Source: Desulfuromonas sp. TF
Lineage (GTDB): Bacteria; Desulfobacterota; Desulfuromonadia; Desulfuromonadales; ATBO01
NCBI RefSeq assembly: GCF_000472285.1
Contig: NZ_KI421421.1
Coordinates: 264,784 to 328,783 of the forward strand
Length of the DNA stretch: 64,000 bases
Direction: 5' to 3'
A program made the translations under genes and the position numbers. Each line of letters opens with the position of its first letter. The stretch's first letter is position 1. The notes under the pieces were generated by a model that had not been told where the DNA came from, made no database searches, and saw nothing but the letters and a program-made list of their open reading frames with translations. Shown here piece by piece: positions 48,953-63,746 of the stretch.

Positions 48953-51900
48953 TCAGAGGTTCTGCATCTGGCGGGCGGCTTCCCGGACGCTCTCCTGGTC
49001 GAACTTGAGCCGGAAGGCGACGAAGGGGCCCTGGGCCGTGAAGTCGGCTTTCGAGAAGTCCTCGTCCTCAAAGCCGAGGAAATTGTATCCGAGGCTGACC
49101 CAGGCATTCGTCGCCACGTTGCAGCCGATGGACACGCCGGTGCCGAAGTCGATCTGCCCGCTCTCCCAGGAGTGGAGCATCCCCCCCCGAAGGCCGATGT
49201 CCCATCGTTCGTCGAGGTCGTAGCGCCCTTCCACTCCGATCAGGTCGGTGAAGCCGTCGTAGGAGTCGCCATCGATGTTCTCCTGCACATACTTGGCCCC
49301 GTACTGCAGGGAGAGCTGGGTCCTGCGGTTCGGCTTGTAGTTGGCGTTCAGGTTGTTGACCAGGCGCCAGTTGTTGAAGCCGAAGTCCTCGGAGGACTCC
49401 TGTTCGAAGCGGTAATCCAGCCGGTTGAGGACGATCCAGCGGGTGTACAGGGGGCGGTAGGCGAGGCCGAAGCGGAGTTCGCCGTCCGTCCGCTCCGCCG
49501 TCCGGGATTCGGTGGTGAAGATCTGGGCCCGGGCCGAAAGGCCCAGCCCCCGGTGGACCTCACCCACGATGGCGCTGAAGAAACCCCATTTGTCCTCGGT
49601 CTCGCCGTCGCGGTATTCGATCCGGTTGGCCCAGGACCACTTCTCCAGCTTGTAGGTCGCCCCCAGGGAGACGGCGGTGAAATCCTCGGTTTCCCCCGAG
49701 GCGGGAGGCACGTCCGTGTCGAAGTCCTCGGCGTCCGCCTCCCTCATGGTGTGGCTGCGGTCGAAGCTGCCGTCCAGGCTCCAGCGCTCGCTCACCTGCC
49801 AGGTCTGCCCCAGGCCGAAGAGGGCGAACATCCTGGGGCCGTATTCCCCCGTCTGCTGCTCGAGGGAGCTGCTCACGGTGCCGCCGGTCCAGGGAGTGGT
49901 CTTGACGCCGACGCGGGTGGTCTGTGTTTCGGTATCGTCGTCCCGGGTGAATTCCTGGGCCGCGAAGAGGGTGGTGGACTGGGTGAGCTTGAAGTCGGCG
50001 CCCAGGGTGGTGCGGGTGGGGAAGTCCCCGCTTTCGTTCTTGCCTCCGAGGGACTGCTCGTGGACGGCGCGCAGCAGGAGGCGCTCATGGGCCTGCCAGG
50101 TTCCGCCGAAGAGGGCCTGGGTGGAGCGCTCCGTCTCGCCTCCTTCGAAATCGTCCACCGCCATTCGCAGGCCGGTGGTCAGGCTGTAGCGTCTGGCCTG
50201 CCAGGTGAGATCGGTCTGGGCCACGTCCCGCACCGCGTCCGTCTCCAGGTTCACCTGGCGGTAGAGCTGTCCTCCGAGCTCCAGCTCGTTCGTGAGGCGA
50301 TAGACCCCTTCACCTCCGAACTTGCGCGTCCCTTCCTCGCTTCCGCTCTGCTGGCCGAGACCGAAGCCGTTCTCTAGTTCGCGGACGTAGAGCCTTCCGT
50401 CCATCTTCTCGGCGCGGTGCTCCACCTCGGCCAGCCAGGCGCTCCCATTCCGGGAGACGCCCGGCGATTCCGAATCGCTGGTGGAGACCTCCGCCTTCAG
50501 CCGGGTCTCCTCCGTGATGTCCCAGGTGGCGTCCAGCCCGTAGAGGTCGCCTTCGGCGTTGTCCTGTTCCTCGTGGATGGCGGTGGCCCCGACCTCGATC
50601 CCCTTCTCCGGCCAGCGCAGCGCGGCGCGGCCGCCGTAGTTGAGGGAGGCTTCACCCTTCCCTATGACCTCGTAATCGACCACGATGGTGACGGGATTGA
50701 AGTTCTCGTCGCGGCTGGGGATCGGCTCCTTGAAGAAGAGAGTGCCGTCGGAGTAGTCGATGTTGTAGTCGATATGGCGGGTGAGCTCCCGGGAGGAGAC
50801 GATCACCTCGCTGCGCAGCCGGTCGCGCACCTCGATGGTTACCTCCTCCGAGTTGAGGACGATGTCCCTGCGGGAGAGGCGGTAGAGCCCCGAGGTGCCG
50901 TCGCCGCGGATCTCGTCCTTGACGAAGCCCTGCTCGGTGTCGCTGGCGAAGAGGTTGAAGGTCGCGTACTTGCCGTTGTACTCCGATTTGAAGCCGGTCA
51001 GTCTTCGGCTGTAGCGGGAGAGCTCGGTCTGGGTCAGCCCGGTGTCGTAGTCGCCGAAGAGGGCATAGAACTGCTCCCGCTCCAGCTTGACGTAGAGCTT
51101 CTCGGCGCTGGCGGCGTCGTAGGCCTGCTGGCTGGCGTCGCCGTAGAGGGTGTAGTAGGTGTCCGGATCGATGATCTGGAGCAATTCCTCGTCCTTGCGG
51201 TCCGGCTTGTCCGAGTCGTAGGCCAGAGTCAGCAGCCACTTGCCGAGAATCCGTCCCTTGCCGAAGAAGGCCACCCGGCCGTCCTCGTAAAGGTCCTCCT
51301 CCACGTTCGAAGGCAGGTTTTCCATGTTGCCGGACACATCGTTGTACCCCACGGTTCCTTCTGCCAAGCCGACCAGGATCCAGTCGCGGAGCTGGGGCTG
51401 GAGCCAGGCCCGGATCTCCTGATCGCGGTCGGCCAGCTTGAAGCGAAGGACCACCTCACCCGAGCGGCTGGTCGGCTCCAGTTGGATCAGGGCGACGCCG
51501 TCCGGGCCGACCTGGAAGTGGGGCCGGAAGTCCTGCTCCTCCGCCTCGACATTGCGGGCGACGGTCTCCTTCCGGTCCCAGGCCGCGTAGGGTAGGTCCA
51601 CCGCGAAGTCGCCGACCACCCCTTCCCGGGCTGGGTATCCGTCCTTGTCGGTCAGGCGCACGGCGATGACGGAGGGATTCTTGCCGTCGGCGATGAGGGC
51701 GGAATGCTCCGGGGAAAGGACGACCTTCACCGGGGGGCCGGAATAATGCACGTTGCGCTTCAGACGATGGATGACGGCGGCGTCGGCGTTGCGGACGACC
51801 AGCTCGAAGGCGTTGTCCCCGTCGTGAATCCCGATCCCCCGCCATTGGCTGACCGCCACCGTGCCGGCGCCGTTCGCGAGGGTTCCCTCGAAGGAAAGGG

Positions 51901-54900
51901 CGTGCACCGGCTTGCCGTCGAGGAGGAGTTCCACCTTCTCTTTCGGATGGTGCTTGACGGCCGCCTTGATGCTGGGGATAGGCGGTCCGTAAGAGGGTTG
52001 AGGCCAGATCCACTCCCGGCCGGGCTGGGCTTTTTCGACCCAGGTTTTGTCGATCTCGGGCATGCGGTCGCCGGGGAGAACCGGGGGCTGATTCAGGTTT
52101 TCGAGAGAGCCTTCGCCCGGACGCAGTCCCTCGGTTTCGGTCTTCTGCTCGCCGCTCCGGTCCTTCAGCATCTGAAGGCTGCGCGTCTCGGAAACCTTTT
52201 CGCACTGGAACCGCACCTCCACCCTGCGGTTCAGGGCGCGTCCCTCCGCGGTGGAATTGTCCGCGATGGGTCTGGTCTCACCCATGCCGGACAGGACGAT
52301 TTGGGAGGGGGGCAGCCCCAGGGCGTCGCCGAGATAGCGGCCGACGCTCTTCGCCCGGGCGTCTGAAAGGGCGAAATTATCGGTGTAGAGATGAAGGTTA
52401 TGCTGTGCGATGGGGATGTTGTCGGTATGTCCCACGACGTAGAGCCGACAAACATCCAGCTTCCTGAGCTTCTCGACGAGTGCGTCCAACTCGGCGTTGT
52501 CCTGCTCGGAAAGCTCGGTCCCCCGTGTGGGGAAATGGGGGCGCACGATGAACTCGGGGAGGAGGTCCCGGCTGTAGTCCGAACGGGCCCGCAGGAGGTT
52601 TTCGGCCATCGGAGTGCGCTGGTTCTTCTTCTGCGGGGAGTCGAAGGTCAGAAGCGCCCGAACCGGCAGTTCCGCCGGAGCCTTCAGGTCGACCTCGCAG
52701 CGGAAAGACACCTCCGCCACCCTGCCTGCGGCAAAGTCGCCGAGACCGAAGGTCGAAATGTTTCCGAACCCGGCCTTAGGATCGTCGAGGGGCGCGCTGT
52801 CCAGAGCGCCGGACCCCGGGACGTACCGAAGCCCCTCGGGAAGGATGAGGGAGAGACGCAGGTTGTCCACTGGGACGCCGCCGGTGCGGATCGGCAGCCG
52901 GAAAGACGCCTTATCCCCGTCCAGGGAGCCGTTCAGTTCGAGACTCACCTCTCCTTGCGCCCGGGGCTTTAGCGCTACGTGGAAGTCTGTGCGCCACATG
53001 GACCCGCCCTGCAGGTCGACGAACTGGGAGTAGGTCCTTCCGGCGAAGCGGCTGTTCTTCTCGCAGGCGACCGCCTCGTATTTTTCCGGCAGGGAGTCGA
53101 GGTCGAGCTGGACCACGTGGACGCCGGGTCGGACCCCCTCGAAGTGGAACATCCCGTTCTCGTCGGAGACGACGTAGGTGCCGTCCTCCAGGTAGATGCG
53201 CGCTCCGGCGAGTCCGTCCGTCTCCTCCGGCTCCGGTTCGCCGCAACCGCCGGTGAAGACACGCCCCATCAGGAAGGTGGTGCTTCGGAAGAAGTCTTCT
53301 TCGACGATCACCGTGGCCCTGGCGGTATTGGAAACGGTCCCCGAGGCGGTCACTGCCTCGGCGGTGTTGATCGCCTCCCCGGGACGGGCGCCGGCGGTTA
53401 TCTCCGCCACGTAGCGAAGCTCCCTTCTGCCCGCCGCGGGAAGGGCTCCCAAGGCGAAGTTCAGGGTCCGGCCATCGGCGGAAATGGCCGGGTCGGCGAT
53501 CCGGTTTCCGTCCAGGCGAGCGGAGCCGCTCCGGTAGCGGAAGCCCTTCGGCAGGCGGTCGGTCACGGTGGCCGCGGCGGTGGGGATGGTGTCGGGGTTT
53601 TCGACTTCCACGCGGTAGGGGACGAAATCGCCGACGGCCGCCCTGTCCTTGCCGGCGGTCTTCCTGAGCCAGACCCCGTCGGCGGCCACGGGGTCGACGG
53701 GAATGTCGATGCGCAGGGCCGGCCCCGGGTTGAGGGAAAACGGCTCGTTCCGGGATCCGGCAACGAGGGCGAAGGGGGCTCCGGGGAGGTCCTGCAGGTC
53801 CGCATCGGAGACGGCGGAGGGCGCGGTGTAACCGGGCGGGGTATTGATGTCCAGGCGGTAGTTCCCCGGAGCCACGAAGGGGAAACGATAGGCGCCGCGA
53901 CTGAAAGTGTACACGTTGCCGACGCTGTCGGTCGCGGTCCCTCCCGAAGTGAGGACGGAGGGATAGAGACTGATGCCGTCATCGCCGAAGACCGTGGCCG
54001 GCTCTCCCGTTTCCGCGTTCACCAGGGTGACGACCACTCCGTCCACCGGCAGGCCCGTCCGGCTGTCGAAGACGATGCCGAAGGGGTCGAAAAGGGAGGA
54101 GGATACCGAGGAGTCACTGCCGTCCATGATGTCGACGTAGCGCCCCTCCACCGTTCCTGCCTCCAGGACCTCCAGACGGCCGTCGTAGGGTGCCCCCGGC
54201 TGGCCGGTGGACTGGATGTAGCCGATGAAGACGCCCGTATCCGGCCCCGTCTCGGTCAGGCGCAGGACCTCCACGTCACCCGTTCCGGTGGCGGTGACCG
54301 TCACCAGGACCGTTTCGGCCATCTGCCGGTTCACGTTCTGGTCCGGATCGCTCAGACGGAGGAAGACCGCTTCGCCGCGGTGATAGATGGACGAAGCGGC
54401 GAGGGGGATATCCCCCTGCTCCAGGGCGATGGCGTTCCCCGAAGGGGGCTGGACCGGTGCGGAAAGGACCTGGAAGTCGCTCTCGGCCGCGGCGGCGGTC
54501 CGGTAGGAGGTGGTCGGCACGGGGACGTATTTCATCTCGGTGGAGGTGGGGGCGTATTTCAGGAACTCGAGGGTCGAGGGGGTGCGCGGCGCCGCCACGG
54601 AGAGGAGGCGGACCGTGTTGGAGGGAATGACGGTGTGCGCGTCCGTTCCGAAGGAGACCGCCGCCGTGTTCTCGATCGCCGTCCCGGCGGGGGTGAGGGC
54701 GAAAGCGGGGATGGCTCCGAGGAGGTACAGGAGGACGGCCAGGGAGAGGAGCAGCGCCTTTCCGTAGCGGCCCCGCCCGACAAAGGACGCGGCCGACACG
54801 GAAAGACGGGCGGACCGGTCTGCAGACCGGCCCGCCATGCGGATTGCAGTTGACTCATGACGTAGAGCGCAAAGGTCCCCCATCCCGGCGGGTTTGCCGG

Positions 54901-54949
54901 GTTTCGGGTGCGGCTTGGTGGCCGGGATGGGGGGGAGCGCATTGAACAT
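48953..54949 (-). CDS. Giant outer-membrane protein (1998 aa): DUF11-like, SdrD-like, OmpA, Ig-like and beta-barrel segments
   Basis: An export segment lies at residues 64-85 (A-L-L-L-S-L-A-V-L-L-Y-L-L-G-A-I). A DUF11-like domain (about 425-545) has V-G-D-F-V-P-Y-R-V-E-V-E-N. An SdrD/carboxypeptidase-regulatory-like domain (576-616) reads G-A-R-I-Y-L-E-D-G-T-Y-V-V-S-D-E-N-G. An OmpA domain (about 800-915) has V-V-G-H-T-D-N-I-P-I and N-R-R-V-E-V, expected to grip peptidoglycan. An Ig-like domain is near 1075-1120. From about 1185 on, alternating aromatic/charged strands suggest a large beta-barrel. Peptidoglycan-binding, surface-exposed and pore-like parts in one chain suggest an anchor or exporter for the secreted DUF11 proteins encoded before it. 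I cannot name a characterised homologue. The exact start is uncertain (in-frame Met at 54883 and 54838). Confidence 0.8.
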   Translation of the reverse strand: MFNALPPIPATKPHPKPGKPAGMGDLCALRHESTAIRMAGRSADRSARLSVSAASFVGRGRYGKALLLSLAVLLYLLGAIPAFALTPAGTAIENTAAVSFGTDAHTVIPSNTVRLLSVAAPRTPSTLEFLKYAPTSTEMKYVPVPTTSYRTAAAAESDFQVLSAPVQPPSGNAIALEQGDIPLAASSIYHRGEAVFLRLSDPDQNVNRQMAETVLVTVTATGTGDVEVLRLTETGPDTGVFIGYIQSTGQPGAPYDGRLEVLEAGTVEGRYVDIMDGSDSSVSSSLFDPFGIVFDSRTGLPVDGVVVTLVNAETGEPATVFGDDGISLYPSVLTSGGTATDSVGNVYTFSRGAYRFPFVAPGNYRLDINTPPGYTAPSAVSDADLQDLPGAPFALVAGSRNEPFSLNPGPALRIDIPVDPVAADGVWLRKTAGKDRAAVGDFVPYRVEVENPDTIPTAAATVTDRLPKGFRYRSGSARLDGNRIADPAISADGRTLNFALGALPAAGRRELRYVAEITAGARPGEAINTAEAVTASGTVSNTARATVIVEEDFFRSTTFLMGRVFTGGCGEPEPEETDGLAGARIYLEDGTYVVSDENGMFHFEGVRPGVHVVQLDLDSLPEKYEAVACEKNSRFAGRTYSQFVDLQGGSMWRTDFHVALKPRAQGEVSLELNGSLDGDKASFRLPIRTGGVPVDNLRLSLILPEGLRYVPGSGALDSAPLDDPKAGFGNISTFGLGDFAAGRVAEVSFRCEVDLKAPAELPVRALLTFDSPQKKNQRTPMAENLLRARSDYSRDLLPEFIVRPHFPTRGTELSEQDNAELDALVEKLRKLDVCRLYVVGHTDNIPIAQHNLHLYTDNFALSDARAKSVGRYLGDALGLPPSQIVLSGMGETRPIADNSTAEGRALNRRVEVRFQCEKVSETRSLQMLKDRSGEQKTETEGLRPGEGSLENLNQPPVLPGDRMPEIDKTWVEKAQPGREWIWPQPSYGPPIPSIKAAVKHHPKEKVELLLDGKPVHALSFEGTLANGAGTVAVSQWRGIGIHDGDNAFELVVRNADAAVIHRLKRNVHYSGPPVKVVLSPEHSALIADGKNPSVIAVRLTDKDGYPAREGVVGDFAVDLPYAAWDRKETVARNVEAEEQDFRPHFQVGPDGVALIQLEPTSRSGEVVLRFKLADRDQEIRAWLQPQLRDWILVGLAEGTVGYNDVSGNMENLPSNVEEDLYEDGRVAFFGKGRILGKWLLTLAYDSDKPDRKDEELLQIIDPDTYYTLYGDASQQAYDAASAEKLYVKLEREQFYALFGDYDTGLTQTELSRYSRRLTGFKSEYNGKYATFNLFASDTEQGFVKDEIRGDGTSGLYRLSRRDIVLNSEEVTIEVRDRLRSEVIVSSRELTRHIDYNIDYSDGTLFFKEPIPSRDENFNPVTIVVDYEVIGKGEASLNYGGRAALRWPEKGIEVGATAIHEEQDNAEGDLYGLDATWDITEETRLKAEVSTSDSESPGVSRNGSAWLAEVEHRAEKMDGRLYVRELENGFGLGQQSGSEEGTRKFGGEGVYRLTNELELGGQLYRQVNLETDAVRDVAQTDLTWQARRYSLTTGLRMAVDDFEGGETERSTQALFGGTWQAHERLLLRAVHEQSLGGKNESGDFPTRTTLGADFKLTQSTTLFAAQEFTRDDDTETQTTRVGVKTTPWTGGTVSSSLEQQTGEYGPRMFALFGLGQTWQVSERWSLDGSFDRSHTMREADAEDFDTDVPPASGETEDFTAVSLGATYKLEKWSWANRIEYRDGETEDKWGFFSAIVGEVHRGLGLSARAQIFTTESRTAERTDGELRFGLAYRPLYTRWIVLNRLDYRFEQESSEDFGFNNWRLVNNLNANYKPNRRTQLSLQYGAKYVQENIDGDSYDGFTDLIGVEGRYDLDERWDIGLRGGMLHSWESGQIDFGTGVSIGCNVATNAWVSLGYNFLGFEDEDFSKADFTAQGPFVAFRLKFDQESVREAARQMQNL

Positions 54950-54970
54950 GAAAAGCCAATCTCGTTGTAT

Positions 54971-56047
54971 TTATTGAATTTCGACCTGGAACTTGACGGT
55001 TGCTGATTCGCCGGCATCCAGTTCGATGCCGTTCACCGTCACGGTGTTGGTGCCGGTGATGTTCCAATTCCCTTCGTCATCACCATCTGCGTCGGTGAGG
55101 GTCGTTTCTGCCCCCCCATAAAGGTTTGGCGCGTCCACCTTGATGGTACCGGTGGAGAAAGCGACAGTGCCGGCGGTAATTTCGGTGTCCAAGCTGTCAC
55201 TGACCGTGATGCCTGTGGCGGTGGCCGAAGCGCCGCCGCCGTTGCTGATGGTGATGGTATATTCCACCGTCTCGCCGGGGATGTAGTAACCGGTGCCACC
55301 GATGACGGCCGAGGACTTTGAGATGGAAAGCTGGGCAGTGCCGACAGTGTAGGTTCCGGAATCCGAGTGCTTACCATCGGTGACGGCGTCGGCGTCGACG
55401 GTGGCGGTGCCGGCGGCGTCGACAAAAATGATATCCTCAAGGCCGACAGTATTGCCGCCGGTCTCTGCGAGGGCGATTCCACCGGCGCCGTTGCCGTCCC
55501 AAGCCGTGGCGATCAGGTGGTATACGTCAGTCTGGGTGTCAGCGGCCGTACCCGGGGCATCCGCAACGATGAAGATGACTTGATCAGCATCCTTGGCCAG
55601 GCTTATGTAAGGCGTAGCGCTGATATTGGTGTCAGAGCCGCTGCTAAAGATGCCGTCCCCATCGTCTTCCCAGACCTGGACGGGGGTATCCATGTTGAAA
55701 GTGTTCGCGCCTTCTTCGGTGGTCAGCTTGAGCTGCAGGGATTCCGCAGCCTTGGTATTGCTGTTGTTGGTCACTGTGAACGTGAGGGCATAGCCGGTAC
55801 CGTTGGGGACTACGGTGGCACCACCGTTGTTCGCCACCACCGGATCGATCTTGTAGTCGACCACGAATTCAGCGGGGGTGCTGGAAATCGATGGGGGGGA
55901 TACGGTGCCGATCTTGTAGTCGATGGTGGCACTGTTGCTGATGGTCTCTCCGGAATCGGTGCCGCCGGCAAACGCCTGCGAAGCCCCGAAGAGCAGCAGG
56001 GCGACCGCCGCGAGGGCGGTCAGGTGAGTGGTGAATCGATGTTTCAT
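54971..56047 (-). CDS. Secreted DUF11-like protein, 358 aa
   Basis: The start is ATG 56047 after AAAGGAGG. A signal peptide (T-A-L-A-A-V-A-L-L-L-F-G-A-S-Q-A-F-A) leads to a protein rich in Thr, Gly, Ala, Asp and poor in Cys. Two beta-rich modules are seen: residues about 30-200 (Y-A-L-T-F-T-V-T-N-N-S-N-T) and a C-terminal DUF11 domain (I-P-G-E-T-V-E-Y-T-I-T-I-S-N-G-G). Asp-rich stretches such as D-A-D-G-D-D-E-G-N could bind Ca2+. DUF11 domains are found in bacterial surface and extracellular repeat proteins. It ends 21 bases before the giant protein starts and is probably its partner or substrate. Confidence 0.8.
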   Translation of the reverse strand: MKHRFTTHLTALAAVALLLFGASQAFAGGTDSGETISNSATIDYKIGTVSPPSISSTPAEFVVDYKIDPVVANNGGATVVPNGTGYALTFTVTNNSNTKAAESLQLKLTTEEGANTFNMDTPVQVWEDDGDGIFSSGSDTNISATPYISLAKDADQVIFIVADAPGTAADTQTDVYHLIATAWDGNGAGGIALAETGGNTVGLEDIIFVDAAGTATVDADAVTDGKHSDSGTYTVGTAQLSISKSSAVIGGTGYYIPGETVEYTITISNGGGASATATGITVSDSLDTEITAGTVAFSTGTIKVDAPNLYGGAETTLTDADGDDEGNWNITGTNTVTVNGIELDAGESATVKFQVEIQ

Positions 56048-56184
56048 GGTCTTCCTCCTTTGGGGGTGAGTGTTTACGGATTGATTCTTGCCTCTTGCCT
56101 GTTTCATGTGCTTCTCCTTTTCTGCTGTTTCGCTTTCTGCGGATCCGGTTCATCGCGGCCGGTGGCCCCGATGAAGGCTGTGGA

Positions 56185-56676
56185 CTATTTCAACCGGGCG
56201 CGGAACTCGACCTGCGCCGTCTCGTTCGGCGGCAGGGGAGTGGTCCGCGTCCAGCGGATGTGGGTGACGTCGACGGAGGCGGCGGGGCGTTTGGTCCCGT
56301 CGGGCTCGGTGACCATGAGCTCGAGCAGGGGCCCGAAGGTTTGTCCGCCGTCCACGGAGTAGGTGACAACGGCGTCATTCCCTTCGGCCGAGGCGCCGAC
56401 ATAGATCATGTGCTCGGGGATGGCGTTGTTGATGACGACATCGTCGGCGGGCGCCTCCCCCTTGTTGATGTATGTGTTGATGAAGATGACCTCTTCCCCC
56501 GGGAGGACCTTGGTTGCGGGCTGCCGCACCAATTCCTTTTCCCCCTTCTCGTTGATCACTGACTTCTCGACGAGAGCCGAGGACTGGATCTCGATGGGGG
56601 CATCCTGCGCCGCGGCCGGGCCGGCGAAAGCGGTCAGGAAGAGGATTGTTATTAGAGCCGGAATGGTTCGTTTCAC
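56185..56676 (-). CDS. Small secreted DUF11-like protein, 163 aa
   Basis: The start codon is GTG at 56676, with AAAGGAGT 7 bases upstream. The signal peptide (I-P-A-L-I-T-I-L-F-L-T-A-F-A-G-P-A-A-A) is followed by one DUF11-like beta domain: V-L-P-G-E-E-V-I-F-I-N-T-Y-I-N-K-G, V-V-I-N-N-A-I-P-E-H-M-I-Y-V, and a C-terminal N-E-T-A-Q-V-E-F-R-A. No Cys in the mature part. It lies 12 bases after the 323-aa gene, so the two are tightly linked. It may be a minor or capping subunit relative to the longer paralogues; this is inference. Confidence 0.78.
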   Translation of the reverse strand: MKRTIPALITILFLTAFAGPAAAQDAPIEIQSSALVEKSVINEKGEKELVRQPATKVLPGEEVIFINTYINKGEAPADDVVINNAIPEHMIYVGASAEGNDAVVTYSVDGGQTFGPLLELMVTEPDGTKRPAASVDVTHIRWTRTTPLPPNETAQVEFRARLK

Positions 56677-56688
56677 GGGTGTACTCCT

Positions 56689-57660
56689 TTAATCGATGGT
56701 GACCTGAAAAGTGACTGTTTTCGCCGTATCCTGCAGGTCGCCGAGGCGGACGGTGACCGTGTCCCCGGCCACCTCGCCGGCGTCGCCGTCCGTGGCGTCG
56801 GTGAGAGCGCCTCCATCGACCTTGAGCGAGTCGTCGACGTAGGTCGTGCTGGCCGGGATGGGATCGGTGAGGGTGACGGTTTTGGCCGTGCCGCTGCCGG
56901 TGGCGGTGAGCTCGATGGAGTAGGTGACGACCGCCGCGGGCATTGGCTCGCTCCCCCCGTAGGGGTCGACGACCGACTGGGACTTGACGACCGTGACATC
57001 GACGGCGGAGATCTGGAGAGTTGCCTCATCGCTCGCGCCGGCGCCGGTGGCGCCGACCACGGCGTTGACTCCCCCGTCTCCCGCCCCGGCGAAGGCGGTT
57101 CCGGGAGCGCCGGTCCCGGTCTTGGCGACTGCGGTGAGACCGGACTTGCCCAGATCGGAGTCGTTGACGCCGGCGGGGATGTTATTGACCACGAAGAGGG
57201 CGATCGAGGCGTCGGCGGCCAGCGCGGGATCGTTGACTCCGGCGCCGTACAGGGTGTCGGTTCCGGCGTCATACTGGCCGTTGTCGTTGGCGTCGAGGTA
57301 GACCCCGGAGAGGGTCGGGTCGAAATGGTCTCCGCCGAGGCCGTTGTCGACCGTCAGGGTGAACGCCTCGCCGCCGTTGCCGGTGTTGGTCAGCAGGAAG
57401 GTGGCCACCTTGCCGGTCTCCCCCGCCTTGCCCAGGATGTTTGACGAGTCCTGCCATGCCAGGGTGACGTCGAGGACCTCGGCGACCTGGAGGGTGACCT
57501 CGTTGCTATCCTGGTTGACCGTCGTGGTATCGACGACGAAGGAAACGCTCGCCTTGTTGGTGATGTTGGTTCCGGCCGCCGTCCCCGCGGCGAGCGCCGG
57601 CAGTGCCGGCAGCAGCCAGAGGGCCGAGGCCACGATCAGCAGTAGAAGTATCCGTCTCAT
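56689..57660 (-). CDS. Secreted DUF11-like protein, 323 aa
   Basis: The start is ATG 57660 after AAAGGAGAAAGG. It has a signal peptide (I-L-L-L-L-I-V-A-S-A-L-W-L-L-P-A to A-L-A). The N-terminal module starts A-G-T-N-I-T-N-K-A-S-V-S-F, comparable to I-S-N-S-A-T-I-D-Y in the 358-aa protein and I-E-N-T-A-A-V-S-F in the giant one, so these secreted proteins share a start module. The linker has D-A-N-D-N-G-Q-Y-D-A-G-T-D, an EF-like acidic loop. A C-terminal DUF11 domain (A-A-V-V-T-Y-S-I-E-L-T-A-T-G-S-G) ends the protein. Role unknown; probably an extracellular structural protein. Confidence 0.8.
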   Translation of the reverse strand: MRRILLLLIVASALWLLPALPALAAGTAAGTNITNKASVSFVVDTTTVNQDSNEVTLQVAEVLDVTLAWQDSSNILGKAGETGKVATFLLTNTGNGGEAFTLTVDNGLGGDHFDPTLSGVYLDANDNGQYDAGTDTLYGAGVNDPALAADASIALFVVNNIPAGVNDSDLGKSGLTAVAKTGTGAPGTAFAGAGDGGVNAVVGATGAGASDEATLQISAVDVTVVKSQSVVDPYGGSEPMPAAVVTYSIELTATGSGTAKTVTLTDPIPASTTYVDDSLKVDGGALTDATDGDAGEVAGDTVTVRLGDLQDTAKTVTFQVTID

Positions 57661-57765
57661 TTCATTCCTTTCTCCTTTCCTTTGCGCAGAGGGATCTCTG
57701 AAGTTTCCTGTCTGTTTTCCGAGGCTTTTCGGATTCATGTTTTTTCCTTTTCATTCAATGGCGGG

Positions 57766-60700
57766 TTATCGCACCCGGACATAAAAGACGATGCTGAAGC
57801 TCGGGTGACTGGTGCCGTCCGAGGGGAGAAACGTGCTCATGGGGTTGACGATGATCTTGCGCACCGCCGGGTCGACGCCGTTGCCGTCGGCGCTGGGCGA
57901 AATCGGGTTGTCGGACGCGTCGCGGTAGACGACGTCGGCGGCCCCGTTGAAGGTCAGGCCGCTGGATATGGCGCCGTCGATGAAGGTGACAGGGCTGCCG
58001 TTTACCACCAGGTCGGTCTGGGCGGGAATCTGGTCGGAGAGGGTCACCGAGTCGGCGTCCGCGGAACCATATCCTGTGTTGGTGGCGAAGATCGTGTAGC
58101 GCATCACCGCCCCGGGGATGGAATAGGGGTTGGTGGTGCCGTGAACGGGGTCGGAGAAGGTCTGTACCATCTTCACCAGGGTGATGTCCGGCAGCCCCAG
58201 GTTGAATATTCCCGCGCCATCGTCCGAGATAGTCCCTTCCGTCCCCTCCTCGGCCGTGACGGTGACCGTCCAGGTCCCTGTCGGACCCGCGGTCGGAGCG
58301 GGGTAGGCGTACTCGAAGGTCTTGGTCAGCGTCCCCGAATCGGCCACCTGGGTCATGGCGGCATCGCTTACCACGGTTGTGCCGTTGGGGTTCTTGAGGG
58401 TGATCGTGGCCGAGGTGATGTCGAAGCTGCCGAAGGGATCGCTCACCACCGCCCTGAGGTAGACCGGCTGTCCTCCCCCGATGTAGCCGTTGGCGGGAGT
58501 GGCCGTCGAAGGATAGGCCGCACTGTAGCCCGTGACGCTGTCCACGTTGATGACGTTCAGGGAGGGGAGGGAGATGAAGGAGTTGTTCCCTCCGCTCGTC
58601 GGATAGACGAGGACGCTGCCGGTGGTGCCTGTATTGTTCACGGTGAGGTTCCAGGTCTGACCGGCGCCGCAGAAATGGTTTCCCGGGACCGTCAGGTTGT
58701 TGAAGGACACCAGGGTCGGGGTGGTCGGCAGATACGGATTGTTGACGGCGGTCCCGTCGAAGATCTTCGATTCGGAGTAGGTGGGTCCTCCGCCGGAGCA
58801 GGCGACATTGACCTGTACGGTCCGGCTCTGGCTTGCGGCGCTGCTGGCCAGATACAGGTTGACGGGGATGATCGCCAGGGGAGTCACGTCCGGACTGATC
58901 GTCACCGGAGAGGCCAGGGCCGGGTTAAGGGCCCACGTTCGCGAAGTGCCTTGGCCGATGGTCACCGAGCTCTGGGCGCCCGCGGGTTTCGAGCGGGAAA
59001 GCTTGTAGGAGGCGGCGCCGTCATGGAGATACAGCAGTTTGTTCCCCGCCCCGGCAATCGCCGAGGGGGAAACGATGAGGGTGGAGGTGCAGGGGGAAGC
59101 GCCGATTCCGCCGGGATTGGAGATGGAGGCGCAGTTGTTGATAGTCGTGCCCGCCGACGTGCCCATCGGAATGGTCGCGTCGAACACGACGGATACCGAA
59201 CCGCCGGCCGGGACCGTGACGCCGGTGGCGGAAAGGGTCTGGCCCGAGAAGCCGCAGGTCGCGCCCGCGGGGCAGGAGACGACCGTCAGTCCGCTGAGGT
59301 CACTGGAGACCGCGTCGGTGAGAGAAACGTTCGTGGCCTCGACCCCCGCGGTTTCCTTGAGGGTGACGGTGTAGCGGATGACGTCCCCGGGATCGGACTC
59401 GCCGCCGTTGCCGTCCTGCCAGGTTTTGGTGGAGGTGGAAAGATTCGATACACCCACCGCCAGGGATGCGGAGGCCGTATCGCCGACGTAGCCTTCGGCG
59501 CTGGTGACCGTTCCGGTGCTGTTGTTATAAACTCCGTCGACGGCGCTGGTCACCTTCGCCGTGATCGTGCAGCTTCCGCCGGCAGGGATCGTCCCGCCGC
59601 TGAGGGCAAGGGACGAGCCGCCGCCGACCGCCGTCACTGAGCCGCCGCAGGAGTTCGTGACGCCGGGAACGGCGGCGTTGAAGAGGTCGGACGGATAGGT
59701 GTCGGTGAACGTCACTCCTGTCGCCGCGGCAAGATTGGTATTCTGAAGGGTGATGGTTAGGGCCGTCTCCCCGTTCGCGGAGATGGACGGCGGGGCGAAG
59801 GACTTTGAGACGACCAGTTTGGTGACGACGTCGTTGACGTCGGCTGCCGAATTGTTTTCAGCGTCGACGGTGACAATGGCCGTATTGGTCAGCGGTCCCG
59901 CAGGGGCGGAGGCGCTCACGGTGGCGCCGATGGTGAAGGTGACACTGCTGTTCACCGGCATGGAGGGAATGATGATCCCTCCGCCCTGCATGGTGGAGAT
60001 GGGGAGAGAACCCGGGCAGGTCGCCCCACCGGCGGCGGAACAGCCGAGGCTGTCGACCGTCAGGTAGGCGACCGCCGGATCCTGAAAGATCGCATTGCTC
60101 AGAGTAGCGCCCGTGGTGTTGGTGATGGTGACGGAATACGTGGTGCCGTCACCGGCGGTGATGGTGTTGATGCCGTCCGATTTGCTGATGGTGGGCAGAA
60201 CTACTAGGCTCACAGTGCTCTTGAGGACGTCCGCCTCCACCGTGCCGTCAGGGACGTTGCATTTGGATTTTGTATTGGGAACCGGATGCTCCGCAGTTTC
60301 ACAGAGATTTCCGCTCTGATTGTCCCAACTCGTGACGAATGGAATGAAAAGCCTCCCCCCGCTCAGGTTGACGGCTTGGCAGGACACCGGGACTCCAGTC
60401 ATTCGCACCACGCCGGAGCCCGTACCTCCGCCGATGCCACTGTTGCCGTCGCCGCAGGTGTCCGGGGAGCCTTCGAGATCGAAGAACGGGCTGGCAGGCG
60501 GGAGGATGGAAACGGTACAGCCTGTAGATCCCCCGTCGGACGGATGCGTTGCGGGACTTTTCCCATCCTTGGCGAAGAAAATGCCGACATCGTAACGGTC
60601 AGGTGAAGCGAAATTGACGGTCACATCCAGGTCGACAGTGACGGGCTCGCCGCCGACGCAGGACGTGGGACCGCCCGGGACAATCGTTATGCCTGTGATC

Positions 60701-60888
60701 GAGACATCATTGGCGGTGCAGTTCAGGTTGGAGCCGAATCGTTCCGCCGCGCACTGGCTCGGGCCATAAGCATAAGCCGCAGCCATACTGAAAAGCTGGC
60801 AGGCGAGCGACAGCAAGATGGCGATAGTTGCGTTTGTGATGATGTTTTTCCTGATGCGGTTAATCTTCAAGTCATATCTCTTCAGCAA
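57766..60888 (-). CDS. Large secreted multi-DUF11 protein, 1040 aa
   Basis: The frame opens with TTG at 60888; a second TTG at 60870 with AAGAGA upstream is an equally good start, and no ATG fits. A signal peptide (I-A-I-L-L-S-L-A-C-Q-L-F-S-M-A-A-A-Y-A) is followed by a Cys-containing N-terminal domain (to about 225) and at least three DUF11 modules (I-T-A-G-D-G-T-T-Y-S-V-T-I-T-N-T, I-S-A-N-G-E-T-A-L-T-I-T-L-Q-N-T, D-P-G-D-V-I-R-Y-T-V-T-L). Later beta domains lead to a fourth DUF11-like end (I-P-G-A-V-M-R-Y-T-I-F-A-T-N). Paired Cys may form disulfides. It is the longest secreted member of the operon and a candidate fibre or adhesin. Confidence 0.82.
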   Translation of the reverse strand: MLKRYDLKINRIRKNIITNATIAILLSLACQLFSMAAAYAYGPSQCAAERFGSNLNCTANDVSITGITIVPGGPTSCVGGEPVTVDLDVTVNFASPDRYDVGIFFAKDGKSPATHPSDGGSTGCTVSILPPASPFFDLEGSPDTCGDGNSGIGGGTGSGVVRMTGVPVSCQAVNLSGGRLFIPFVTSWDNQSGNLCETAEHPVPNTKSKCNVPDGTVEADVLKSTVSLVVLPTISKSDGINTITAGDGTTYSVTITNTTGATLSNAIFQDPAVAYLTVDSLGCSAAGGATCPGSLPISTMQGGGIIIPSMPVNSSVTFTIGATVSASAPAGPLTNTAIVTVDAENNSAADVNDVVTKLVVSKSFAPPSISANGETALTITLQNTNLAAATGVTFTDTYPSDLFNAAVPGVTNSCGGSVTAVGGGSSLALSGGTIPAGGSCTITAKVTSAVDGVYNNSTGTVTSAEGYVGDTASASLAVGVSNLSTSTKTWQDGNGGESDPGDVIRYTVTLKETAGVEATNVSLTDAVSSDLSGLTVVSCPAGATCGFSGQTLSATGVTVPAGGSVSVVFDATIPMGTSAGTTINNCASISNPGGIGASPCTSTLIVSPSAIAGAGNKLLYLHDGAASYKLSRSKPAGAQSSVTIGQGTSRTWALNPALASPVTISPDVTPLAIIPVNLYLASSAASQSRTVQVNVACSGGGPTYSESKIFDGTAVNNPYLPTTPTLVSFNNLTVPGNHFCGAGQTWNLTVNNTGTTGSVLVYPTSGGNNSFISLPSLNVINVDSVTGYSAAYPSTATPANGYIGGGQPVYLRAVVSDPFGSFDITSATITLKNPNGTTVVSDAAMTQVADSGTLTKTFEYAYPAPTAGPTGTWTVTVTAEEGTEGTISDDGAGIFNLGLPDITLVKMVQTFSDPVHGTTNPYSIPGAVMRYTIFATNTGYGSADADSVTLSDQIPAQTDLVVNGSPVTFIDGAISSGLTFNGAADVVYRDASDNPISPSADGNGVDPAVRKIIVNPMSTFLPSDGTSHPSFSIVFYVRVR

Positions 60889-60937: not shown

Positions 60938-61423
60938 TCAGGAGGAATACGAAACCATCAGCCCTTCCGCGAACGCATCCTGTTCACAGGCGCACTCCGA
61001 AAGAAGGGAGATCACGCTTTCCACAATTTCAATGCGACATGTATTTGCGTTGCCACAGCCGTTCAGCTCCGACGGCAGGTTTTTCTGAATGTAGTCACGT
61101 ACGACGGGGACGTAGCGATGGCCGGCAAAGTCGCCATCGAGCAGCGATCCGAAAAAGCCGTCCAGTTGTCGGCGAATGCCTGCATAGGCGGAGGGGCTTC
61201 CGGTTTTTCCGTCCGCCGCCCAGGGACCCTGGCAGGCCGCCGTCAGGCTTTTTCCGAGAACCCGCAGGCGCGCCGCCAGTTCGAGGGCCAGCTCTTCGGC
61301 GTGCAGCCGAAGCTGATGAAAAGCCTGAGTGGTTTGCGAATCGATCGGCCGACTGTTCGCAGAGGTCCTTTCCTGCAAGGAAGAACCGGCGCGAAGAAGG
61401 CAATTGGGGTTTATTGATTTCAT
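60938..61423 (-). CDS. Unknown protein, first gene after the tandem riboswitches (161 aa)
   Basis: The start is ATG 61423, 34 bases after the riboswitch terminator; GGAAGA lies upstream. The protein looks helical and cytosolic: T-T-Q-A-F-H-Q-L-R-L-H-A-E-E-L-A-L-E-L-A-A-R-L, then L-D-G-F-F-G-S-L-L-D-G-D-F-A-G-H-R-Y and a C-terminal half with several Cys (C-G-N-A-N-T-C, L-S-E-C-A-C-E). No family is recognised and there is no signal peptide. As the first gene read when the riboswitches allow transcription, it could be a regulator or chaperone for the secreted proteins. Confidence 0.6.
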   Translation of the reverse strand: MKSINPNCLLRAGSSLQERTSANSRPIDSQTTQAFHQLRLHAEELALELAARLRVLGKSLTAACQGPWAADGKTGSPSAYAGIRRQLDGFFGSLLDGDFAGHRYVPVVRDYIQKNLPSELNGCGNANTCRIEIVESVISLLSECACEQDAFAEGLMVSYSS

Positions 61424-61456
61424 GTCCGTCTTCCGTCCGGTGGCGCAGCTAAAATG

Positions 61457-61484
61457 AAAAAAACCCATGCTTGGGGAGCATGGG
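61457..61484 (-). terminator. Terminator of proximal GEMM-I riboswitch
   Basis: Read on the minus strand: CCCATGC-TCCCCAA-GCATGGG followed by seven T. It forms the expression platform of the aptamer at 61510-61626. Confidence 0.85.
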
Positions 61485-61509
61485 CCTGGGCGCACGGGTG
61501 CGCTAATCC

Positions 61510-61626
61510 ATACTCCCCGTCTCTTCGGTAGCCCGGCTGCCCTTTCCGCCTTTGCTGCGTGTCGGCGGGGGAGGGCCCGTGGCTTTGCGTCCCTGGATCT
61601 CTCCAGGTTTGCCGTTATCGGAGTAT
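61510..61626 (-). promoter_or_regulatory. GEMM-I (cyclic-di-GMP-I) riboswitch, proximal copy
   Basis: On the minus strand, P1 pairs ATACTCC with GGAGTAT. Inside are the conserved GGCAAACC, a P2 stem (CCTGG/CCAGG), GGGACGCAAAGCC and the P3 region ending GGCTACCG. The base preceding the conserved G of GCAAACC (position 20 of the Vc2 numbering) is G, as in c-di-GMP-binding members. A terminator follows, so it is predicted to control read-through into the surface-protein operon. Confidence 0.9.
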
Positions 61627-61778: not shown

Positions 61779-61891
61779 CCATACTCCCCTTCTCTTCGGT
61801 AGCCCGGCTGCCTTTTCCGCCTGCGTGTCGGAGGAGGGCCCGTGGCTTTGCGTCCCTGGATTTCTCCAAGTTTGCCATTATCGGAGTATGG
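61779..61891 (-). promoter_or_regulatory. GEMM-I (cyclic-di-GMP-I) riboswitch, distal copy
   Basis: Same elements as the proximal copy: P1 CCATACTCC/GGAGTATGG, GGCAAACTTGG, GGGACGCAAAGCC and GGGCTACCG. Position 20 is again G. The two aptamers are in series on one leader, each with its own terminator. Sequence before each aptamer is also duplicated (61626-61716 resembles 61891-61980), which shows a tandem duplication of the whole control unit. Confidence 0.9.
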
Positions 61892-62052: not shown

Positions 62053-62069
62053 ATCCACGATTTGTGCCA
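62053..62069 (-). promoter_or_regulatory. Possible sigma-54-like promoter upstream of the tandem riboswitches
   Basis: On the minus strand TTGGCACAAATCGTGGA has a full TGGCAC -24 block, but its -12 reads GTGGA (GG instead of GC) at the correct spacing. It lies directly after the sigma-54 activator gene at 62157. The rest of 61980-62156 shows no gene. Confidence 0.4.
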
Positions 62070-62156
62070 AAAAATTAATGCTGTATTTCAGTAATATAGT
62101 GGGTTCCGGCGAAAAGCATTGAGTATCGAGTATCCATTTTGGATATCCAAAATAAA

Positions 62157-63536
62157 TCAATCATCCGAGTCGTCATCCATCCCATACCGCGCCATCCGGC
62201 GGCGGAAAGTGTAGTAATTCATGTCAAGAAGACGCGCGGCGACCATCTTTTTCCCTCCCGCCGCGGCCAATGCGCGCTTCAGTGCCCATTTTTCAACTTC
62301 GGCCATTTTGAAGGGAAGATCGTCCGGGGAAACTTCGAATGATTGACCTTGGGCGGCGGAAATTCTCGCCGCGGGGTCGATCTCTCCGAGGATGCCCTGC
62401 AGGATGGCGGGGGAGATCACGTCGTCCGCCATGATCGCGGCGTGCTTGATGACATTGCGCAGCTCACGGACATTCCCGGGCCATGAATGGGACTGCAGCA
62501 TGGTCATGCCGTCCGCGGAAATCTCCAGCGGAGGCCTGCCGATTTCATGACAGGCTTCGCGCAGAAACTTCCCGGCCAGAGCCGGAATGTCTTCGGGAAT
62601 GACGCGAAGAGGGGGCATCTCGATCATGAAGGTTGCGAGACGGTAATAAAGGTCCTGACGGAAGTTGCCCGCCGCGGCCTCGGCCGCCAGGTCCTTGTTG
62701 CTGGCGGCGATTATGCGGATATCGGCGTGCGCCTTGCGGTTGCTGCCGAGGGGGTGATAGCTTTTTTCCTCTACCAGTTGAAGGAGCAGCGCCTGCACGG
62801 CGGGTGGGGCGGCATCGATATCGTCGAGGAAGAGGGTCCCGCCCTTGGCGGCGGTGACCAGACCCTCCCGCTTTCGTTCGGCACCTGTGAAGGCTCCCTT
62901 TTCATGGCCGAACAGGTCGGCGGCTACCAGCGATTCGGGAATGGCGCCCAACTGGACGGTCACGAACGGTTTGTCGGCGCGGGGGCTGAGATCGTGGATC
63001 ATCGACGCCAGCCTCGATTTGCCGGCACCGGTCTCGCCCTGGACCAGAACGGCATAGTTGCTGCGGGCGATCCGCACCACTTGGCCGGCGATTTTTTTCA
63101 GTTTCGGCCCTTTGCCGAGCATCTGCTCGACGGATTGGCGCAGTTCGCTGTTGAGGCCGAGCAGCTGTTTTCTCTGCAGAACCGGCAGCGCCGCCTTCTC
63201 AAGGGTGGAGATCAGCTTGTCGTCTTCGCACGGCTTCGGAACGAATCCCGCGACACCGAGTTCGATGCCGCGAAGCAAATAGGGAACATCGGAAAAGGCA
63301 CTGAAAAAGACCACCGGAGTTTCGGGACTGAGCCGACGTAGCTGTTCAGTCAAGGCGATGCCGTCCATCTCCGGCATGATGATGTCAGTGAGCACGAGGT
63401 CAGGTTTTTCCTTGAGGAAAAGATCCAGAGCCTCACGCCCGTTGGTGGCGATGAGCACTTTGCGGCAATGGGGAGACAGAAGATCTCCCACGGCCTTGCG
63501 CAGGAGTTTCTGATCTTCCACAAAAAGCAATTTCAT
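62157..63536 (-). CDS. NtrC-family sigma-54 response regulator with riboswitch leader
   Basis: A 459-aa regulator. In-frame ATGs at 63560, 63554 and 63536 all lack a good ribosome-binding site; 63536 opens the receiver cleanly (M-K-L-L-F-V-E-D-Q). The receiver is intact (L-V-L-T-D-I-I-M-P-E-M-D-G; Lys in V-P-K-P). The AAA+ domain has G-E-T-G-A-G-K-S (A/S for the usual T/E), G-A-F-T-G-A, G-G-T-L-F-L-D-D-I-D and W-P-G-N-V-R-E-L-R, and the C-terminal Fis-type helix-turn-helix reads G-G-K-K-M-V-A-A-R-L-L-D-M. No kinase is adjacent. Its gene lies just upstream of, and in the same direction as, the surface-protein operon, which it probably activates. Confidence 0.92.
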   Translation of the reverse strand: MKLLFVEDQKLLRKAVGDLLSPHCRKVLIATNGREALDLFLKEKPDLVLTDIIMPEMDGIALTEQLRRLSPETPVVFFSAFSDVPYLLRGIELGVAGFVPKPCEDDKLISTLEKAALPVLQRKQLLGLNSELRQSVEQMLGKGPKLKKIAGQVVRIARSNYAVLVQGETGAGKSRLASMIHDLSPRADKPFVTVQLGAIPESLVAADLFGHEKGAFTGAERKREGLVTAAKGGTLFLDDIDAAPPAVQALLLQLVEEKSYHPLGSNRKAHADIRIIAASNKDLAAEAAAGNFRQDLYYRLATFMIEMPPLRVIPEDIPALAGKFLREACHEIGRPPLEISADGMTMLQSHSWPGNVRELRNVIKHAAIMADDVISPAILQGILGEIDPAARISAAQGQSFEVSPDDLPFKMAEVEKWALKRALAAAGGKKMVAARLLDMNYYTFRRRMARYGMDDDSDD

Positions 63537-63584
63537 ATGTTTAAGTATGTTCATCAACATATAAACAAATCATCTTTACATCAC

Positions 63585-63620
63585 AAAAACGCCCATTTTT
63601 CTCGTCGGGAAAAATGGGCG
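63585..63620 (-). terminator. Terminator of third GEMM-I riboswitch
   Basis: Read on the minus strand: CGCCCATTTTT-CCCGACGAG-AAAAATGGGCG followed by five T, about 50 bases before the regulator gene. A second imperfect hairpin (63630-63652) lies between it and the aptamer. Confidence 0.82.
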
Positions 63621-63656
63621 TAAGAATTCCCTTGGATACACAGGGAATCTTCATGG

Positions 63657-63746
63657 CCCTCTCTTCGGCGACTCGGCTGCTCGTATGTGTGCGAGCCCGT
63701 GGTTCTGCGTCACCGGGTTGCCCCGGCTTTGCTATTATCGGAGAGG
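63657..63746 (-). promoter_or_regulatory. GEMM-I riboswitch, possible cGAMP-type, upstream of sigma-54 regulator
   Basis: On the minus strand: CTCTCCGATAATAGCAAAGC, a P2 stem CCGGG-GCAA-CCCGG with a GNRA loop, TGACGCAGAACCACGGGC, and the P3 end GCCGAGTCGCC, closed by P1 with GAGAG. The base at position 20 is A here (TAGCAAA) while both tandem copies have G (GGCAAA). G20A is the change known to move GEMM-I RNAs toward cyclic AMP-GMP, as in Geobacter. Confidence 0.8.

Follow-up and report, generated by a model that had tools for sequence, protein, structure and literature searches.

What is sensed by the riboswitch in front of the sigma-54 regulator gene of Desulfuromonas sp. TF, and how does it relate to the two aptamers of the same class that precede the operon behind that gene? 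The window, by which the whole analysed stretch of 64,000 nucleotides is meant, contains three GEMM-I aptamers in a cmscan search, all on the minus strand. Two of them form a tandem pair about 1.8 kb downstream of the third and have G at position 20 (Vc2 numbering), the ligand-specificity position, and for the third an earlier note had claimed an A at this position and a likely function as cGAMP sensor. The elements of the third leader are the following:

63664..63743, minus strand: third GEMM-I (c-di-GMP-I, RF01051) aptamer, sub-type A20 / G21-C46 / G48-C90
63733, minus strand: A equivalent to G20 of Vc2 (A14 of Gs1761), model position 11 in the cmscan alignment
63705, minus strand: G48, paired with C90 by alignment and covariation; A in G20 aptamers
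63670, minus strand: C90, paired with G48 by alignment and covariation; U in most G20 aptamers
63741..63746, minus strand: 5' strand of P1, CCUCUC, from the folds
63655..63663, minus strand: 3' strand of P1, GAGAGGGCC, with the 5' arm of the terminator as alternative partner (antiterminator), from the folds and a duplex test
63589..63621, minus strand: intrinsic terminator downstream of the aptamer and ahead of the regulator gene, with a 13-pair stem and then a U run, from the folds

The third aptamer is a GEMM-I RNA, as RF01051 matches it in the whole-window search with 53.9 bits (cut-off 35, E 9.7e-8) and it has the P1-P2-P3 fold, a GNRA loop in P2 and C92/C93. It falls outside the c-di-GMP-I-GGC family (RF03167), which in a search of a small region at relaxed thresholds gave 49.8 bits and thus stayed under the cut-off of 59, and the first G of which is an A here. 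The reading of TAGCAAA in this aptamer and of (T/C)GGCAAA in the tandem pair proved correct in letters and coordinates, and the covariance-model alignment assigns 63733 to Vc2 position 20, which excludes that the A lies at another position. In the RF01051 alignment, this is the unpaired base preceding the G-C pair that starts P2, and the covariance-model alignment also keeps G21-C46. Absent from the earlier note was that the third aptamer has a G-C pair at 48-90 where A-U is usual.

The background on cGAMP riboswitches used here comes from passages of PMC6274999, PMC9262584, PMC8835794, PMC6456294, PMC7288161 and PMC9481103. The argument that A20 in Geobacter favours cGAMP is not supported in the form in which it had been put forward, as the receptors in question pair C-G next and not G-C: in the Gs1761 structure as described, P2 starts with C15-G40 after A14 (PMC6274999), and for pilM a U15-G38 wobble in lower P2 is given (PMC9262584). 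Because it is of the AGC type, the third aptamer agrees with the cGAMP receptors at position 20 and not at 21-46. Its description as a likely cGAMP sensor keeps the support of A20 and gains that of a Hypr-type GGDEF protein encoded in the genome, and it has against it the G21-C46 pair in place of the receptors' C21-G46.

In the whole genome of the strain (4.40 Mb in 17 contigs), RF01051 has 27 matches, 26 of them above the cut-off, which were grouped by the letters at positions 20-22 and 45-46 of the oriented sequences. A20 is not rare among them (10 of the 27, eight of type AGC and two of type ACU). The GGC group (G20, G21-C46) comprises ten aptamers and one relative (L025), the AGC group (A20, G21-C46) eight, with the third aptamer of the window as L015, and the ACU...GGAAAG group two (L019, L026), which are classic cGAMP-type riboswitches. 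Six more combine G20 with a flipped C21-G46 pair (L010, L011, L016, L018, L024 and the sub-threshold L027); the first five of these have ON-like platforms, genes for isochorismatase-like, alpha/beta hydrolase and subtilase proteins are among those behind them, and in L024 the ligand-pairing base at position 92 is a U. Seven of the eight AGC aptamers have G48 together with C90, the exception being L012 with A48 and G90, and none of the ten GGC aptamers has G48: all have A48, and all but L013 (C90) have U90.

The same association is found in the order, for which 88 genomes of at least 90% completeness were searched with fixed-shape patterns. There are 137 A20 aptamers in these genomes, 87 with A48 and 50 with G48, which means that about a third of the A20 aptamers of the same shape have G48; one of the 50, in G134, does not fold, is likely a chance match and was left out of the Fisher test and of the locus set. 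With these patterns, no G20/G48 aptamer was found in the 88 genomes, as opposed to 187 G20/A48 aptamers, and the Fisher test (A20: 49 G48 and 87 A48; G20: 0 and 187) gives p = 9e-22, uncorrected for relatedness. Eighty A20 loci were fetched, consisting of every credible A20/G48 locus from other genomes (43) and of 37 of the 86 A20/A48 loci from other genomes, the latter hand-picked to spread over genomes. G48 is opposite C90 in 41 of the 43, and A48 is opposite U90 in 36 of the 37; exceptions are L093 (G48, U90) and L127 (A48, C90), and L091, which was counted as a G48 exception, is mis-anchored and has C90 by eye.

A draw of 394 genomes from the phylum, searched with an R20/G48 pattern, added 18 matches, 16 with A20 (the one in G506 looks like chance) and two with G20. 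These two, in G481 and G405 of one genus, both have C90, and by eye C90 is present in all 13 of those loci outside the order that look real among the 14 fetched, both G20 loci included. The two (L277, L278) are the only G20/G48/C90 aptamers found, and a similar locus of the same family (L283) has A20. A rule that G48 is forbidden on G20 would hold in the order and was given up on account of them. Since C90 faces G48 and U90 faces A48 almost throughout, 48-90 is, judged by covariation, a true pair, the G-C form of which appears strongly yet not absolutely tied to A20. In the description of structure 4YAZ, these positions correspond to A42-U73, the first pair of P3, beside the ligand (PMC6274999).

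The genes behind the A20 aptamers are suggestive of signalling and redox functions and not decisive. Behind A20/G48 aptamers (42 genes, as one of the 43 loci has no open reading frame) there are six FAD/4Fe-4S oxidoreductases and three response regulators, and behind the 37 A20/A48 aptamers there are six response regulators, four GGDEF and three PilZ proteins. In 11 A20/G48/C90 loci (L085, L088, L090, L094, L100-L102, L104-L106, L120) the 3' strand lies inside the terminator, which is the ON-like arrangement.

As to the direction of switching, the terminator of the third leader is separate from the aptamer and begins 49 nt past position 90. In folds of the growing transcript, P1 is present up to 128 nt. 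Transcripts of 132 to 152 nt show an antiterminator instead, the 3' strand of P1 and some adjacent bases being paired to the 5' arm of the later terminator, and from 156 nt on both P1 and the terminator are formed. Both tandem leaders fold in the same order, the orthologous leader described below less cleanly. Among 2000 shuffles, an antiterminator duplex as good was obtained 22 times for the third leader, 8 times and never for the first and second tandem leader, and 334 times for the ortholog, the duplex of which is therefore no better than that of many shuffles. The predicted alternation of the P1 3' strand between P1 and the terminator 5' arm is that of a Cd1-like OFF switch, and the third aptamer as well as the tandem pair are predicted to be OFF switches. 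As the full-length minimum-energy fold of the third leader already has the terminator without ligand, such an OFF function needs kinetic control, and because the folds are equilibrium folds of ligand-free fragments, the direction is a prediction. The five G20 aptamers with flipped pair mentioned above and the two ACU aptamers, all of them C21-G46, have their 3' strand inside the terminator (ON-like). The ON and OFF labels of all surveyed loci are predictions, and the terminator finder misses or mispicks hairpins at some loci, with none found in L001, L027, L091, L093 and L122.

Downstream of the third leader, the following features were assigned:

62157..63560, minus strand: NtrC-type response regulator of 467 aa with receiver (PF00072), sigma-54 AAA+ (PF00158) and Fis-type HTH (PF02954) domains
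62128..62148, minus strand: imperfect inverted repeat GGATATCCAAAATGGATACTC, by eye, a likely activator site
62054..62069, minus strand: sigma-54-like -24/-12 element TGGCACAAATCGTGGA, GG-N10-GG and not the usual GG-N10-GC
61794..61885, minus strand: tandem aptamer 1, G20/A48/U90, c-di-GMP-I-GGC (RF03167), 70.3 bits
61731..61758, minus strand: terminator of tandem aptamer 1, by terminator search and folds
61523..61622, minus strand: tandem aptamer 2, G20/A48/U90, c-di-GMP-I-GGC (RF03167), 67.1 bits
61461..61487, minus strand: terminator of tandem aptamer 2, by terminator search and folds
60938..61495, minus strand: first gene after the tandem switches, 185 aa as listed, no Pfam match; the true start may be an ATG further in
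57766..60888, minus strand: open reading frame of a large surface protein with DUF11/DUF7933 repeats (Pfam)
48953..57738, minus strand: open reading frames of further cluster genes, DUF11-type proteins and a 1998-aa DUF11/OmpA protein (Pfam)

Inverted repeats and sigma-54-like elements are found behind the regulator genes also elsewhere, which suggests that the operon downstream is a sigma-54-dependent target of the regulator. Past the stop codon of the regulator gene, repeats like GGATATCCAAAATGGATACTC are also present in L261, L262, L263 (where one half is clearest) and L264. The element TGGCACAAATCGTGGA differs by one letter in the orthologous locus L262, and the element TGGCACAAAT(C/A)GTGGA is present at +90 in both riboswitch-bearing loci. 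In L263, TGGCACAACTTCTGCT has the canonical spacing GG-N10-GC, whereas the -12 part in the window is GG and not GC. The GGC aptamer in L271 precedes a protein that resembles, by eye, the 185-aa one.

Orthologs of the regulator (E <= 1e-90) are encoded in eight of 136 genomes, the own one included. In G012, which belongs to another family, the regulator is 76% identical and has an aptamer before it (46.5 bits) and a GGC aptamer after it (60.5 bits), the latter followed, by eye, by a protein resembling the 185-aa one and then by DUF11-like proteins. Read by eye, the downstream aptamer has G20, A48 and U90, and as the upstream one has A20, A48 and U90, it seems that A20 ahead of the regulator was retained and the 48-90 pair was swapped as a unit. 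The claim that the locus reads two dinucleotides is thereby strengthened in its architecture, the order A20 aptamer, regulator, G20 aptamer and operon recurring in an orthologous locus of another family, and it stays tentative in its ligands. No aptamer was found around the orthologous regulators of G019 (77%) and G240 (66%), and G203 has an A20/G48/C90 aptamer behind a relative with 52% identity; the riboswitch layer thus appears to come and go, and the two regulators without aptamer indicate that it is not essential to the circuit. A scan of named genomes for synteny with the regulator as query gave nothing informative among the 80 relatives retained out of 591, the top segments of which are 31-40% identical.

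A source of cGAMP is predicted. The Hypr-type Ser (NDTHGHLAGS) is found in one of the 22 GGDEF domains of the own genome, that of L044 (contig C7:18807-19265), a protein composed of receiver and GGDEF parts with 6d9m as best PDB match and the Hypr Ser aligned. The description of 6d9m fits the lysozyme-fused GacA structure reported in PMC6456294, and L044 is predicted to be a GacA-like Hypr GGDEF protein, that is, a cGAMP synthase. Presence or absence of Hypr proteins was useless as a test of the ligand: the motif pattern, which ends two bases into the last codon and does not distinguish Ser from Arg, has matches in every one of the 88 genomes of the order, and co-occurrence is therefore uninformative.

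The reading that we prefer, at a probability of just under one half, is that the third aptamer is an A20-sub-type GEMM-I switch that binds cGAMP better than does a G20 aptamer, perhaps also c-di-GMP, and turns the sigma-54 activator OFF. The preference for cGAMP is what we infer here; the sequences themselves show which letters the aptamer has, its predicted fold and terminator, the covariation of G48 with C90 and the recurring A20/G20 layout. In favour of cGAMP are A20, the predicted synthase L044, the two classic cGAMP-type riboswitches of the genome and the gain in cGAMP affinity described for an A20 aptamer of Desulfobacca (PMC9481103). L044 would make 3',3'-cGAMP, which the third aptamer would bind better than a G20 aptamer does, ligand binding would stabilise P1 and keep its 3' strand from the terminator 5' arm, and the terminator would form and shut off the activator gene. 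The activator probably recognises the inverted repeat downstream of its own gene and activates the sigma-54-like promoter of the surface-protein operon, the transcript of which would additionally have to pass two G20 OFF switches for c-di-GMP. As the activator would be OFF with cGAMP and the operon OFF with c-di-GMP, expression of the operon would require low levels of both signals, which amounts to a NOR-like layout over two transcripts.

Less likely, though the best of the alternatives, is that the third aptamer is a plain c-di-GMP OFF switch and that both transcripts answer c-di-GMP at different thresholds. The A20 aptamer of Desulfobacca acetoxidans, which apart from this base is described as highly similar to the G20 aptamers beside it, gained affinity for cGAMP and retained most of that for c-di-GMP (PMC9481103), and the G-to-A exchange at this position in Cd1 (G11A) left c-di-GMP binding largely intact (PMC9262584); both speak for such a switch. 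It would also suit two other A20 aptamers of the genome, L012 and L017, which directly precede the Asp-type (canonical) GGDEF genes L035 and L046 and could exert negative feedback on c-di-GMP, but a cross-talk from cGAMP to c-di-GMP is possible there and fits equally. If G20 and A20 were exchanged by neutral drift, however, G48-C90 should be found on G20 as well, where it occurs 0 times against 187 in the 88 genomes and twice elsewhere, and the ortholog has retained A20 despite its changed 48-90 pair.

Somewhat less probable again is a dual sensor with similar affinities for cGAMP and c-di-GMP, by which the regulator would be shut by whichever dinucleotide abounds. The affinities described for the Desulfobacca aptamer (PMC9481103) would fit this directly, and position 20 is described in PMC9262584 as contributing to selectivity rather than acting as a strict filter, but the G48-C90 pair, which is no part of the Desulfobacca argument, may sharpen selectivity. 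That the A20/G48/C90 aptamer is degraded, binds no dinucleotide and leaves the terminator as a constitutive attenuator is very improbable. In its favour are a Rfam score lower than that of the tandem pair (53.9 bits against 70.3 and 67.1, the latter two with another model) and the non-standard pairs 52-87 and 49-90 of the Rfam alignment. Against it, the mismatch at 49-90 vanishes with a 48-90 pairing as given for 4YAZ (P3 A42-U73, PMC6274999), the core letters are unchanged in dozens of A20/G48 loci, and the antiterminator beats all but 22 of 2000 shuffles.

The cGAMP-preferring OFF switch can be extended by a further proposal, which is tentative and rather doubtful: RNAs of the type A20/G21-C46/G48-C90 might form a separate cGAMP-sensing lineage of the order, in which G48-C90 would act as a further specificity determinant in place of the C21-G46 flip of the Geobacter receptors, and the locus might be a two-dinucleotide gate over two transcripts. 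That A20 and G20 aptamers stand side by side in one genome is already known from what is described in PMC9481103. A G48-C90 pair linked to A20, and an A20 switch on the activator of a G20-controlled operon, were not found in the literature searched, the coverage of key primary reports being incomplete, and a search on A48 and the selectivity of cGAMP riboswitches gave nothing. Should the proposal be true, GEMM-I RNAs would have reached cGAMP specificity by two routes, C21-G46 or G48-C90, position 20 alone would be unfit for ligand annotation, and cGAMP and c-di-GMP would act at successive steps of one pathway, beyond the Geobacter examples. Should it be false, with c-di-GMP as ligand throughout, the locus would be a warning against taking A20 as a sign of cGAMP. 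Three natural RNAs within 2.3 kb and a pair-swapped ortholog are a compact test set for the way in which a riboswitch changes its ligand.

Among known systems, the GEMM-Ib cGAMP riboswitches of Geobacter (Gs1761/pgcA and pilM/Gm0970) share with the third aptamer the GEMM-I fold, A20 and C92, which serves the G half of the ligand. Classic members, however, have C21-G46 (ACU...GGAAAG) and A48-U90, whereas the third aptamer has G21-C46 and G48-C90, and pilM was published as an ON switch, with the 3' strand inside the terminator in L019 and L026, whereas the third aptamer has a separate terminator and is predicted to be OFF; of the GEMM-Ib features tested it thus has A20 and lacks both the C21-G46 pair and the ON-type platform. 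With the c-di-GMP-I and c-di-GMP-I-GGC aptamers of the Vc2 type, it has in common the G21-C46 start of P2, the GNRA loop, P3 and C92, and its platform is like that of the tandem aptamers, which are of the RF03167 type, but it has A for the first G of GGC and G48-C90 for A48-U90. Cluster 3 of Desulfobacca acetoxidans, compared by its description in PMC9481103, also has A20 near c-di-GMP-I aptamers, both kinds close together; there, an AdoCbl riboswitch is on the same transcript and ON switching is predicted, whereas in the window two transcripts would be connected via a sigma-54 activator. The logic of switching is like that described for Cd1 of Clostridioides difficile (PMC9262584), where the bound aptamer and the terminator can also coexist and an antiterminator competes with them in an OFF switch, although Cd1, unlike the third aptamer, has G at the specificity position and controls other genes.
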